Source of the DNA: Variovorax sp.
GTDB taxonomy: Bacteria; Pseudomonadota; Gammaproteobacteria; Burkholderiales; Burkholderiaceae_C
Length of the DNA: 40,376 nt
Reading direction: 5' to 3'
NCBI GenBank assembly: GCA_028292835.1
Contig: JAQGLP010000548.1
Span: 1 to 40,376 of the forward strand
The position numbers and the translations under genes are program-made. Under the pieces are notes generated by a model, which saw only the letters and a program-made list of their open reading frames with translations, did no database searches and was not told the origin of the DNA. This document shows positions 26,659-32,100 of this stretch, piece by piece (positions within the stretch are counted from its first letter, which is position 1; each line of letters opens with the position of its first letter).

Positions 26659-27292
26659 CGTTCAGATCCTCAACGAAATCGAGCGTGTATTCGGTGTCCT
26701 CACCTACGGCGGTGTCGTTCTGCCCGGCATCTTCCGAGACGAGCTGGAACAACGATGTTGGCCGGATCCGTATCGCCGCACCTTCCCCAATGTCTGTGGC
26801 GAGCGGCGGCTTAAAGCTGATCGTCACCGCGCCAGTGCCGTCCGTCCGATAGGGCGTCAGGCCCGTCACCATATGAACGCGACCGTCGCCGCCGAAATAG
26901 TCGCCCGGCATCCATGCTGCCGTGTGCGCCACATGGCCGGTCCAAGCCATCGTGGTCGCGCCCTCAAGAGTGGCCCCGTTGGTGATCGAGCCAACGGCCT
27001 GCTCGCGTTGGTCGCCCCGCGGGCGGGGACGACGAAAGTCCCAGAACGCGATCCGATTCAGACCGCCTTCAAGGTCCGCGATCAGTGCGTCCAGGCGAGG
27101 GGCAAACGCCGACTGGCCGCGAACACCATCGTCACCAGCGCGGAACGTCAGCCGAGCCAGCCAGCGGGGCGCTGACAGCCCGTACACCTTGCGCGTACGC
27201 GTGATGGGGCTTTCTTGCCCGCCCACGTGGGGCTGGAGGTAGAAGGCGACGCGATAGGGGACGAGATCGACCGGCCATTCGAAGTCCGCCAT
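26648..27292 (-). CDS. distal tail protein
   Basis: Start at ATG 27292 overlapping tape-measure stop: MADFEWPVDLVPYRVAFYLQPHVGGQESPITRTRKVYGLSAPRW. Confidence 0.7.
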   Translation of the reverse strand: MADFEWPVDLVPYRVAFYLQPHVGGQESPITRTRKVYGLSAPRWLARLTFRAGDDGVRGQSAFAPRLDALIADLEGGLNRIAFWDFRRPRPRGDQREQAVGSITNGATLEGATTMAWTGHVAHTAAWMPGDYFGGDGRVHMVTGLTPYRTDGTGAVTISFKPPLATDIGEGAAIRIRPTSLFQLVSEDAGQNDTAVGEDTEYTLDFVEDLNGDA

Positions 27293-30200
27293 CAGCCCCT
27301 CCTTCGATTGGCTTGCGCGATGGCCTGCATCGTGGCGGTTTTTGTGGCCTCCGCCAGCCGCGCGACCTCGCCTCGTGTCGCGAGGTCTACACCGGCAGGC
27401 ACCGTGAGGTAGACGTTGACCGGGGCATAACCGCCGCCTCCCCGATCGTTGGCAGGCGTAATCTTCACGTTCTCGCCCTTGGTCAGCCGCATGGCCATCA
27501 TGTTCTGGTCGATCCCGGACCGCCCGCCGACCTTGAACTCGCCGCCTCGCGCAAAGCCCGGAGTTTTCGCCCACGGATCGATGCTCTTGAAATCCGCCAG
27601 CGGGTTGGACGAACCGAGCGTGGCGTCTCCGCGGCCGCCAATTCCGAGGGCGCCGAGAACTGATCCGAGTGCGCCGCCGATGCCACCGCCTCCCAGGTTT
27701 ACCTTGCTGAATAGGCGGGCGATCAGGTCGGAGAGACTGTTCAGCGCCTCCTCCATCCCCTTCGCGGTGCGATCCCGCAGCCAGTTCTTGAAGTAGGACT
27801 TGAAGTCGCCATCGAGCGCGGCGCGGAAGCCGCCCTTGATCGTGTCGCGGAAGATGCCTTGCTGCCGGGCCTGCTCGCCCTGCATGGCCTCCGTCGCGGC
27901 TTGGGCCTCAGCTGCAGCCTTTGAGAGGCCGGCACCGCCGCTCGACTGCGCCCGCTGCAGCTCCTCGGAGCGCTCGCGGATCCACTGCGCGGACTCCATC
28001 GCGCGGATCTGCTGGTCGGTATCTCCGCGCGCTTTCGCAAGGTCGATCTGGCGCTGCGCCTCAGTGTCGCGCAGCATCTGGTCACGTGCCGCGGCGCGTT
28101 CCTTATCAAGCCGCACCTGTTCGGCGATGGCGGCGGCCGTGGCCAGCTCCAGCGTCTTGCCGTGCTCCTGATAGAACAGGATGCGCTCGCGGATTTCAGC
28201 AGAGCGGGTGAGGCTGTCGACGATCTCGCCGTTGTTCGTGATCTCGGCGGCCTGCAGGTTGACCGAATCCTGATGCTCCTTGACCTCGCGCCCCATGCGC
28301 GCGGCGCGCGCGGCCTGAAGCGTTGCCATGTCCTGCTCGGCAGCGATCTTCGCGGACGTGGCGCTGAGCCCCGCATCTTCCCAATCCTTGATCCGGCGCT
28401 GGAGGTCGAGTTGGTCCTGAAGCTGCTGGGCATGAGCCGCGTCGCCGCGGTCCTGCGCGGCTTGGATCTCCACCTCAATCTTGAGCTCGTCGCGGCGGCG
28501 CGCGAGTTCCTCGGCGGAGGGGCCGTGCGCTTTCGTGGACTTATCGGAACCGCCTGAGGAGAGGTCGGGGTTTGTCAAAACGGGCGCATCTACCGACGCG
28601 ATCGGTGCATTGATGGCGGCCGTATAACCGTCCACCACGGATGCCCAATCCTTCAGGTTCTTGATGGCCTGCTTAGCATTTTCGTCCGCTTGCCGTTGCG
28701 CACGGTCTGCATAAAGCGATTGAATCTGTTCGGCCCGACCCTCATCCGCGCCGGCGATCAGCGTCGCAGTGGGAGCCGACGCCTTTACTGCATCCGCCCG
28801 AGCGCGCTCGCGCGCGGCCATCGCAGCAGTCAGGTCAGCTTTGGCGGTCTTGATGGCCTGGATAGCGGCGAGACGATCGGCTTGAGCTTTCGCGATCAGC
28901 TGAGCGCGAGCGTTACCCAACGCCGTTGCGAGTTGTAGTGTGGTGTCGCGCTGGCGGCCCTGCGCTTCCGACACCTTATCGGCGGCTGCCTTCAGATGAT
29001 CGTTCGCCACCACCGCGCGTGTCGTCTGCTGATAGACGTACCCCAGAGCAGCAGCGACGCCGAGGATCACGACGCCCCATGGGCCCGTCAGGAACCGCAT
29101 GGCCAAACCGAGGCGCGTCATCGAAGCGGCGGCCAGATTCCCGGAGGCCGCCGACGCGGCGAGCGCCGTGTTGGTCGCAGCCCACATCGGCGCCAGCCGG
29201 CCCCCGAGTGTGAGGACGGTTCCCCAAACGCCAACGAGTTTTCCTGCCACGAGCACCACGGGGCCGATAACCGCCGCAACCGTGGCCATTACACCAATCA
29301 GCTGCAGGACCGGCGCGGGCAGCGCCGAAAACCCGCGGATGAGATCGCCGACAGTCGTGAGCACCGCGGTCGCGCCCGCAAGGAAACCACTATCGCCGAG
29401 AGCAATTGCGGCAGCTTCGAAGGCCTTCTTTACCTGAGTGAGTGCACCGGCCCAGCCCTTCATGCGGGCTTCCATCTGATCCTGCGCGCTCGCCTTGTCG
29501 ATCTCGCCGCGGATACGAGCCAGGCCGTCTGCGCCCTGGTTCATCAGCCCGATCGCGGTGCGCATGGCATCCGTGCCGAACATGGTCGTCAGCGCCTTAG
29601 TTTTGGCGGTGTCGGAGAGTCCGGCGAGATTGTCCTTCAGGACCTGCGCGATCTCGCTTAGCGGCTTCATCTGGCCGTTGGCGGAATAGAAGGACACGCC
29701 TAGGCGCTCCATCATTGCGCCCGCCTCTTTCGACTTGGGGGTGAGCGAGGTAAGGAATGTCTTGAAGGACGTGCCCGCATCCGAGCCGGACGAGAATAGT
29801 GCGGACGTTGCGGCGAGCGCCACGTTGGTATCTTCGAAGGAAAGCCCGAGGCCACCGGCCACGCCGCCCGTCTGCCCAAGTGCCTGCCGATAGTCGTCAA
29901 AGCCAAACTTAGAGACGAGCATGCCACCGGTGAGCTTATCGACGACACCGTTCATATCCCCGGCCTGCTTGCCGAACTGCTGCATGATGTCCGTCGTGAG
30001 ATCAGCGGCGGGCGCGAACTCTGCCGCGTTGGCGGCGGCCAGCTTGAGCACGGCCGCGGTGGTGCCGCCGAGGATCTGCGTGGCGTTCAAGCCGTTTTTG
30101 GCGAGGGCCTCCATCACGTCAGCCGTCTGAGCAGCGGTAGCCGTCACGCTCTTGTCCGCGCCGAAAGCCTTCGCCTGGTCTCGAAGGGCCTTCAACTGCG

Positions 30201-30468
30201 TGCCGCTGGCGCCGGTGGCCGCCTCCACGCGATTCATCGCGCTCTCGAAATCAGCGCCCATTTTGAGCGCCGCACCGCCCACTGCGAGGATCGGCAGGGT
30301 CAGGCCGATAGAAAGGCTTTGACCGATCTTCTCTATACGCTGTCCCATCTGCTCGAACGAGCGACCGGACTTCAGGAGTTGTTTCTGAGCTTCTGAAAGG
30401 CCCTTCTCAAACTGTGCGGTGTCCAGCCCGAGAATGACCCTGAGCTGACCTATGATGCTGCTAGCGAT
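27292..30468 (-). CDS. tape measure protein (TP901-type), probable non-canonical ATC start
   Basis: Track ORF begins at ATG 30348, but the same frame extends upstream as I-ASSIIGQLRVILGLDTAQFEKGLSEAQKQLLKSGRSFEQ with SD GGGAGG 6 nt before ATC. Confidence 0.88.
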   Translation of the reverse strand: MASSIIGQLRVILGLDTAQFEKGLSEAQKQLLKSGRSFEQMGQRIEKIGQSLSIGLTLPILAVGGAALKMGADFESAMNRVEAATGASGTQLKALRDQAKAFGADKSVTATAAQTADVMEALAKNGLNATQILGGTTAAVLKLAAANAAEFAPAADLTTDIMQQFGKQAGDMNGVVDKLTGGMLVSKFGFDDYRQALGQTGGVAGGLGLSFEDTNVALAATSALFSSGSDAGTSFKTFLTSLTPKSKEAGAMMERLGVSFYSANGQMKPLSEIAQVLKDNLAGLSDTAKTKALTTMFGTDAMRTAIGLMNQGADGLARIRGEIDKASAQDQMEARMKGWAGALTQVKKAFEAAAIALGDSGFLAGATAVLTTVGDLIRGFSALPAPVLQLIGVMATVAAVIGPVVLVAGKLVGVWGTVLTLGGRLAPMWAATNTALAASAASGNLAAASMTRLGLAMRFLTGPWGVVILGVAAALGYVYQQTTRAVVANDHLKAAADKVSEAQGRQRDTTLQLATALGNARAQLIAKAQADRLAAIQAIKTAKADLTAAMAARERARADAVKASAPTATLIAGADEGRAEQIQSLYADRAQRQADENAKQAIKNLKDWASVVDGYTAAINAPIASVDAPVLTNPDLSSGGSDKSTKAHGPSAEELARRRDELKIEVEIQAAQDRGDAAHAQQLQDQLDLQRRIKDWEDAGLSATSAKIAAEQDMATLQAARAARMGREVKEHQDSVNLQAAEITNNGEIVDSLTRSAEIRERILFYQEHGKTLELATAAAIAEQVRLDKERAAARDQMLRDTEAQRQIDLAKARGDTDQQIRAMESAQWIRERSEELQRAQSSGGAGLSKAAAEAQAATEAMQGEQARQQGIFRDTIKGGFRAALDGDFKSYFKNWLRDRTAKGMEEALNSLSDLIARLFSKVNLGGGGIGGALGSVLGALGIGGRGDATLGSSNPLADFKSIDPWAKTPGFARGGEFKVGGRSGIDQNMMAMRLTKGENVKITPANDRGGGGYAPVNVYLTVPAGVDLATRGEVARLAEATKTATMQAIAQANRRRG

Positions 30469-30561: not shown

Positions 30562-30987
30562 ATGAAGGGCGTCGGCATGACGATGTGGGTGGTCGGGATG
30601 ATCGCCGTTCTTTGGGCGATGTTCGTATTTGATCCTAGCGTAGCGGCGGAGCACCCATTCTCGGGAGGCGTGACCACGGACCGCGTCGTCAACATGGACC
30701 TTCAGCAGAGGCAGCTGCTTATGGCCTTGGCCGGGATGACCGCATTCATCTCCGGCATCGTAGTGCACTGCCTGGCCATGGTCATGGACAGGATGAGTCC
30801 GGTCGCTCGGCCGGCAGTTCACACGCCCGTTGCACCGATTCCAACCGCGCCCCATTCTGATGCTTCAGATCAAGAGGTCATGGAGCGTCACGGGATACGT
30901 CGCGAAGGGGACTATTACATCTTCGACCCGTACCGTTATGAGCACCTGAAGGACGCGGTAGCCTACGCCACAAAGGTGAAGTCCTAA
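30562..30987 (+). CDS. membrane protein, plus-strand moron inside tail operon
   Basis: 141 aa; N-terminal TM WVVGMIAVLWAMFVFDP and second TM LMALAGMTAFISGIVVHCLAMV; strong SD AGGAGG at 30552. Confidence 0.7.
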   Translation: MKGVGMTMWVVGMIAVLWAMFVFDPSVAAEHPFSGGVTTDRVVNMDLQQRQLLMALAGMTAFISGIVVHCLAMVMDRMSPVARPAVHTPVAPIPTAPHSDASDQEVMERHGIRREGDYYIFDPYRYEHLKDAVAYATKVKS

Positions 30988-31666
30988 GGGCTTCGCCGCT
31001 TCTTGCCGACGTGCGCCACATAGACCTCAGCGGCCTTGAGCGCCTCCTGCCACGTCTGCTTCTTGCCCTTGCGCGCCCGCTTGGACGTTGACCGGCCAAG
31101 CAGCTTGTCCAGCGACGGGAACTTGGCGATGCGGCCCAGCTTGGCGTTGAGGTGCGCGATGGAGATCGCACGTTCATAATCGCGGTCCGCGGCGCGCGCG
31201 GCCGCCGCTACCGCTTGCGCGAAGAGGCGCGGGGTTTGCTTCCAGAACCTGTCCGGGTCCTGGCCGATTTCGCACCATTCGCCGTAGCACTCGAGGATGT
31301 TCCAGCCGCCACCCTCAGCGGTTTCGGAGGGCCCCCGGCCGCCTTCGCTGCCTCCGGAAAGCAGGCGGAGAACGACTGCAGCACAATCGCCGCCGCCGCG
31401 TCCGGTCCGAGCGCCTGGATGATCTTGGCCGCGGTGCGGTCCTCGACTTCACCATGCCGGTCGAGCAGGCCGACGCGAAACACCGTCATCATGGCCGTGG
31501 GGCTCTTCAGCACAGCGGCCCCGATCTGCTCGATCTGTTCGGTCATCTCACCTTCGAGCACCGCGAGCGCGTAGAAGTCGAGCAGGATGACACCACCCTG
31601 CTCGAACCCCTCAACGTTCACTGGCCCGAAGGCAATTTCACCCGTCAGCGGGTTGGCGCTCAGCAT
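30984..31666 (-). CDS. tail assembly chaperone fusion (G-GT type) made by -1 frameshift at 31328..31334
   Basis: Zero frame MLSANPLTGEIAFGPVNVEG...AKAAGGP; -1 frame SETAEGGGWNILECYGEWCEIGQDPDRFWKQTPRLFAQAVAAAARAADRDYERAISIAHLNAKLGRIAKFPSLDKLLGR...RRSP*. Confidence 0.8.
31208..31666 (-). CDS. tail assembly chaperone, non-frameshifted product
   Basis: ATG at 31666 overlapping tail tube stop; frame ends at 31208. Confidence 0.75.
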   Translation of the reverse strand: MLSANPLTGEIAFGPVNVEGFEQGGVILLDFYALAVLEGEMTEQIEQIGAAVLKSPTAMMTVFRVGLLDRHGEVEDRTAAKIIQALGPDAAAAIVLQSFSACFPEAAKAAGGPPKPLRVAAGTSSSATANGAKSARTRTGSGSKPRASSRKR

Positions 31667-32100
31667 TACGCAGCCGGAACCAGGACAGGCTTGCCGGACA
31701 CCTTGAAGGTGGCCGAGCCGGTCATGCGATCTTCCAGCGGTGCTGCGCGACCGTGGGAGGTAGCGAAGCCGCGGAAGTCGAGGGTGGCGCCATTGGCGAA
31801 CTCGACACGCCAATTCTCGACGCTGTGGGTAGCGAAGTGCGTGGCGATCACCTCGTCGTCGGCCTCGCCGGGGATGAGATTGTAGACGATGCTCACCTCG
31901 CCGGCATCGGTCATGCCGGGCTTATATTCGTGGTGCCGGTCGGGGCTGGACATGTGCGTGAACTGCACGGAATCCCGCGAGAACTCGGGCGGGTTCAGCT
32001 CGGTCACCTCCGCGAGGGTGGTGCCGTACACACCGGGAGCCGTCTCCTTCTTGAGGAGCATGCCATAACCGATGTCAGTGTCGTCTGCCGTCTCTGCCAT
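31666..32100 (-). CDS. major tail (tube) protein
   Basis: ADDTDIGYGMLLKKETAPGVYGTTLAEVTELNPPEFSRDSVQFTHMSSPDRHHEYKPGMTDAGEVSI. Confidence 0.88.
   Translation of the reverse strand: MAETADDTDIGYGMLLKKETAPGVYGTTLAEVTELNPPEFSRDSVQFTHMSSPDRHHEYKPGMTDAGEVSIVYNLIPGEADDEVIATHFATHSVENWRVEFANGATLDFRGFATSHGRAAPLEDRMTGSATFKVSGKPVLVPAA

Follow-up and report, generated by a model that had tools for sequence, protein, structure and literature searches.

Conserved −1 frameshifting in tail assembly genes is known from gpG/gpGT of phage lambda and from many other phages (Xu, Hendrix and Duda 2004; summarised in PMC5009743). In Caulobacter phages, a −1 frameshift is found in the pre-tape-measure chaperone, with AAAAAAC as the site in phiCbK and GGGAAAC in Colossus (PMC3556154), and in the Listeria phages PSA, A118 and A500, capsid and tail-shaft genes are subject to a +1 frameshift at CCC_UGA (PMC5009743). 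For E. coli, the Z_ZZN tetramers have been ranked in combination with the IS3 pseudoknot as A_AAG >> U_UUC > U_UUU > C_CCU = C_CCC > A_AAA; when assayed by reporter in E. coli, C_CCU directs weak −1 shifting, and Z_ZZN tetramers are nearly inactive without a stimulator (Sharma 2014, PMC4066793). The predominant tetramers named for IS elements are A_AAG, U_UUY and A_AAA (PMC4066793). For PRFect, eight backward motifs are described, and those named include no obvious lone C_CCT (PMC10885494). Within the open-access literature, we found no paper on GGGCCCT as a phage frameshift site and no report of C_CCU sites in tail chaperones.

The arrangement of two chaperone versions from one gene is common in tailed phages; what is new in the present case is the C_CCT core revealed by comparison with relatives. 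The locus lies in a 40,376-nt stretch of DNA (positions 1–40376; “the window”) which is considered to be largely a temperate siphovirus-like phage or prophage, because portal, terminase, capsid, protease, distal tail and integrase genes are present; no terminal direct repeat was found in the window, which lies on a single contig of a genome assembly that is incomplete. The major tail tube gene is preceded by tail completion and connector genes, and the chaperone genes, referred to as G and T, occupy the canonical position, flanked by the genes for the major tail protein and the tape measure protein. The features of the locus are:

31669–32100, minus strand: major tail tube protein, immediately preceding G (Pfam Phage_TTP_12, E=4.6e-22)
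31208–31666, minus strand: G, short form of the putative tail assembly chaperone (ATG at 31666, stop at 31208, 152 aa by ORF translation)
31349–31356, minus strand: SD-like stretch with GGAGG, a candidate stimulator, ~14 nt upstream of the heptamer (duplex energy −8.8 kcal/mol)
31328–31334, minus strand: candidate slip heptamer G_GGC_CCT (GGGCCCT); the core kept in relatives is C_CCT (31331–31328)
30984–31448, minus strand: T frame, open between two stops and displaced by −1 from G, with no usable start before the conserved domain
30984–31327, minus strand: part of T added after the shift, 114 residues past the shared proline, then a stop
27292–30348, minus strand: tape measure protein, downstream of T (PhageMin_Tail, E=4.7e-40; phrog tape-measure families)

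Between T and the tape measure gene, a plus-strand ORF of 141 aa (30562–30987) overlaps the last 4 nt of T. Its N-terminal half contains hydrophobic, membrane-like stretches, and it matches phrog_8032 weakly (E 0.0014); oriented against the tail operon, the ORF resembles a moron.

The minus-strand zero frame at the site reads ..AAG GCG GCC GGG GGC CCT CCG AAA.., which bears out the description of GGGCCCT in the initial annotation as a perfect in-phase X_XXY_YYZ heptamer at 31334–31328; it is the sole in-phase XXXYYYZ of the window's G. From the heptamer on, the T frame encodes 116 residues, close to the ~115 codons estimated earlier. T had gone unlisted among the ORFs, as already proposed, for want of a start codon, since the first ATG, GTG or TTG is a GTG located 98 codons into the conserved core. 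G and T overlap by 80 codons, and a shift on CCT would join 113 residues of G to 114 of T in a fusion protein (GT) of 227 aa. Taken by itself, the GGGCCCT motif is weakly significant: given an in-phase XXXYYYZ rate of 0.10% of codons in 15 other genes of the window, the probability of a chance occurrence is ~0.08 in the 80-codon overlap and ~0.025 in a 25-codon linker. The case for the motif is convincing because it is conserved in relatives.

Scans of viral and bacterial contigs yielded 124 distinct T sequences, the window's included, with one locus truncated; the named hosts of the relatives are alphaproteobacteria (Rhizorhabdus, Sphingomonas, Sphingopyxis, Paracoccus and Pelagimonas). In all 123 distinct sequences with a readable upstream gene, T is displaced by −1 from the G that precedes it. 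Twelve apparent “+1” cases, which arose when the longest overlapping ORF was automatically picked as G, involved spurious ORFs, and upon inspection the real G was always in the −1 relation. Homologues that translate the second frame from a start of their own, a case raised in the initial annotation, are not the rule: from the opening of the T frame to the conserved core, 105 of 123 relatives contain no ATG, GTG or TTG, and 121 of 123 no ATG, so that separate initiation of T is not a general explanation.

Production of T from its own start or by re-initiation, in the absence of any frameshift, would find some precedent in the fact that GTA gp10.1 (TAC_6) is annotated as a separate gene, and two Paracoccus phage records treat T in the same manner, as a small gene of its own. 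The lack of start codons before the core speaks against it, as do the Paracoccus records themselves, in which the annotated starts lie inside the conserved domain of loci that have an in-phase GGGAAAG; such an origin of T is regarded as very unlikely. Among 50,697 annotated phage records, three match the window's T; none is annotated as joined or frameshifted, and T is either truncated or not annotated at all. The two Paracoccus phages, MK291443 (locus L003, 2501–2842 of that locus) and MK291441 (locus L004, 2501–2845), carry T as a short, separate hypothetical protein, and with the in-phase GGGAAAG located in the G–T overlap, the annotation truncates T in both.

The assignment of G and T to tail assembly chaperone families is made at the family level, on the basis of the matches of their relatives. 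Of 30 aligned G relatives, PF11836 (Phage_TAC_11/GTA-gp10) is matched by 21 and phrog_2115 (“tail protein”) by 28; among the aligned T relatives, 14 of 23 match PF09550 (Phage_TAC_6) and all 23 match phrog_19318. A Pfam profile search with the window's G gave no match, PF11836 included. The window's T matches phrog_19318, a family listed as of “unknown function”, with E 4.5e-14, and PF09550 with E=0.007 at 17.2 bits, which is under the gathering cut-off of 23.4. In Foldseek comparisons, the model of the window's G showed weak similarity to named tail assembly chaperones in BFVD (probability ~0.99, TM ~0.5, E 0.06); the AlphaFold model of G had no match in the PDB, and that of T nothing significant among viral proteins. 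A search with PF09550 in genomes of the same family and the same class, run as a GTA check, returned no usable loci.

Across the relatives, two main classes of sites are present, namely GGGAAA(G/C/T) and in-phase NNC_CCT, the latter comprising also GGGCCCT and AAACCCT. The census lists 57 GGGAAA(G/C/T), 18 AAACCCT and 9 GGGCCCT (window included), together with about 28 loci with an in-phase, non-heptamer NNC_CCT (CGC_CCT, GAC_CCT, AGC_CCT, CAC_CCT and one AAC_CCT after G); the remainder consists of a few CCCTTT(A/G), GGGCCCG, CCCCCCG and AAAAAAC and of three loci with none. When the sequences were grouped at 60% identity into 67 clusters, which are partly related by descent, and one representative was taken from each, the in-phase and out-of-phase counts were 37 and 4 for CCCT, and 27 and 4 for GGGAAA. 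In the GGGAAA(G/C/T) class, the following base is G in 24 of 28 representatives, a 3′ context specific to this class.

The sites of the CCCT class do not all conform to the pattern seen in the window, where the site reads X_XXY_YYZ; 14 of 36 representatives deviate from it, and the NNC_CCT sites outside XXXYYYZ (GGACCCT, CCGCCCT, GCGCCCT and others) are spread over 14 sequence clusters. Among the 17 clusters holding a member without any in-phase heptamer, NNC_CCT is kept in 14, against 0.36 expected, with T intact in the −1 frame. As the pattern was spotted in the first batch of sequences and tested within the same family, the clusters found only in the second batch are the fresh ones; they account for 8 of 10, compared with 6 of 7 for clusters seen in the first. 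Given this retention, C_CCU, the tetramer decoded by tRNA-Pro, seems to be essential, and XXX favoured but dispensable. The codons in the P-site before CCT vary (GGC, AAC, GAC, CGC, CAC and AGC). GGGCCCT and GGACCCT replace each other between close relatives (in the clusters of L017/L170 and L022/L005) while CCCT is unchanged, and the GGGAAA and CCCT classes even alternate inside one cluster (the L035 group).

That the window's GGGCCCT is an ordinary XXXYYYZ site, functioning by canonical tandem slippage only, and that non-heptamer relatives use another site or have lost the frameshift, would agree with the enrichment of the XXX half in the CCCT class (22 of 37, against a background of 5.8%), which also indicates that P-site re-pairing matters. 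It agrees poorly with the NNC_CCT kept at the same place in heptamer-less clusters, with the divergence of XXX among close relatives at constant CCCT, and with L017, L045 and L202, in which C_CCT is the only in-phase Z_ZZN tetramer of the scanned region; we therefore consider an exclusively tandem mechanism rather improbable. The reading of the site as an XXXYYYZ heptamer in the initial annotation thus holds for the window itself, but the signal conserved in relatives is the tetramer in N_NNC_CCU, in most cases with C as the next base, because C_CCT is kept while XXX drifts to non-slippery triplets. Judged from the sequences, the persistence of the four-letter core C-CCT where the seven-letter slip signal is lost is unusual among tailed phages.

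The T frame past the shift often encodes Pro-Ser-Glu/Asp, and a Pro-Ser(-Glu/Asp) peptide could explain some of the conservation of C_CCT. Codon choice argues against a constraint acting purely at the protein level in either frame: the site invariably reads CCT in the zero frame and CCC in the −1 frame, while elsewhere CCC makes up 28% of the proline codons of T and CCT 10% of those of G. Slippage of the RNA polymerase on the G run, in place of the ribosome, might be suggested by GGGGGCCC in the window; its runs, of 5 G and 3 C, are rather short to cause slippage of this kind, and relatives with GCG_GAC_CCT_CGG or AAC_CGC_CCT_CGG have runs of at most 3 at the site, which makes this origin of the second frame extremely improbable.

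CCCT is followed by C in 33 of 36 representatives, compared with a background of 24%; the usual next codons are CCG, CCC, CCT and CGG, and TAG occurs twice. Pro-Pro pairs and stop codons are decoded slowly, which would favour slippage in the P-site, and such a context is what would be anticipated if the −1 frame were reached by a single tRNA-Pro slipping in the P-site while the next codon waits. The XXX enrichment, however, suggests that the codon before CCT has an influence, and a +2 shift, as the other way of arriving in the same frame, would not need CCC_T; taken together, we consider these variants unlikely, if less so than purely tandem slippage. In two loci, L202 and L179, the CCT slip codon is immediately followed by TAG, the stop of the zero frame, an arrangement that would suit P-site tRNA slippage at a slow stop.

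Regarding stimulators, strong GGAGG-like tracts are found upstream of the site in most loci, but they are reproduced by synonymous shuffles, and the SD-like duplex of the window is likewise indistinguishable from synonymous-codon shuffles. Hairpins past the slip site are stronger than at control positions in each of three site classes taken as groups (p 0.011, 0.0006 and 0.007). The downstream structure of the window is ordinary (z −0.86; best hairpin −13.6 kcal/mol), which speaks against the frameshift reading, given that C_CCU depends on a stimulator in E. coli, and the window's best pseudoknot candidate, matched by 5% of mononucleotide shuffles, is unconvincing. A stronger structure at tetramer than at heptamer sites amounts to a trend only (p 0.23 and 0.07). 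Very strong downstream hairpins are present in L017, L007, L134 and L188. In these and in L168, L006, L213 and L127, very stable, often near-perfect hairpins of ~8–14 bp start 5–10 nt after the slip site; several of them have their loop in the codons of a conserved WDW motif and are candidate frameshift stimulators.

The −1 relation of T to G in 123 of 123 sequences, the gene position and the family matches argue for a programmed −1 frameshift of the lambda G/GT type, with products of ~152 aa (G) and 227 aa (GT). This lends strong support to the original proposal of a −1 frameshift that yields a G-GT type chaperone. Very probably, a pair of tail assembly chaperones comparable to lambda G and GT is produced from the locus through −1 frameshifting at a C_CCU core read by tRNA-Pro, with XXX being helpful and not required. 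From the computed frames, conservation and motif statistics, we infer the slippage itself, the slipping tRNA, its efficiency and the function of GT.

Most ribosomes would translate G and terminate at 31208. At GGC_CCU, a minority would undergo slippage, in which tRNA-Pro moves back from CCU to CCC and the neighbouring tRNA-Gly from GGC to GGG; the core event would be the A-site re-pairing of tRNA-Pro, with P-site re-pairing as a bonus. The shifted ribosomes would go on in the −1 frame and yield the 227-aa GT fusion with a predicted G-P-S junction (junction peptide ..AAGGPSETAEGGG..). By analogy with lambda, for which this role is established, GT may serve as a bridge between the tape measure protein (via its G part) and the tail tube subunits (via its T part). 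Tentatively, and at a little short of even confidence, we extend this to a widespread, undescribed class of −1 sites in phage tail genes, many of them alphaproteobacterial, at which a single tRNA-Pro slip from CCU to CCC, usually with C next and often in a Pro-Pro context, suffices and the two-tRNA heptamer rule fails.

Frameshift finders and phage annotators mostly seek XXXYYYZ, a rule that is broken in dozens of phages in which C_CCT marks the shift. The family, furthermore, offers naturally occurring cases in which to study whether the slip of one tRNA is enough, why it is proline, and whether C_CCU is slipperier in hosts other than E. coli.

Compared with known systems, the family shows both familiar and distinct traits. 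The GGGAAAC of Colossus is the site type of many relatives described here, and no CCCT site is reported for phiCbK or Colossus. The Listeria phages PSA, A118 and A500 likewise employ a proline codon in phage structural genes, but shift by +1, whereas the shift proposed for the window is −1. With RcGTA-type gp10/gp10.1, the correspondence is through the relatives, those of G matching PF11836 and those of T PF09550, while the window's G has no Pfam match and its T stays below the PF09550 cut-off. As at the Z_ZZN sites (Sharma 2014), the A-site tRNA would re-pair from ZZN to ZZZ, and a non-slippery codon in the P-site would be tolerated; unlike the tetramers of IS elements, C_CCU is recurrent here, and it is so in phage tail genes. 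With lambda G/GT, the locus shares a −1 ORF overlapping the end of G, a slip site in the overlap, the position between major tail and tape measure genes, and a startless T; it differs in that G and T of this family are related to GTA-gp10 and TAC_6, and in that the core is C_CCU on tRNA-Pro, as opposed to A_AAG on tRNA-Lys in lambda.
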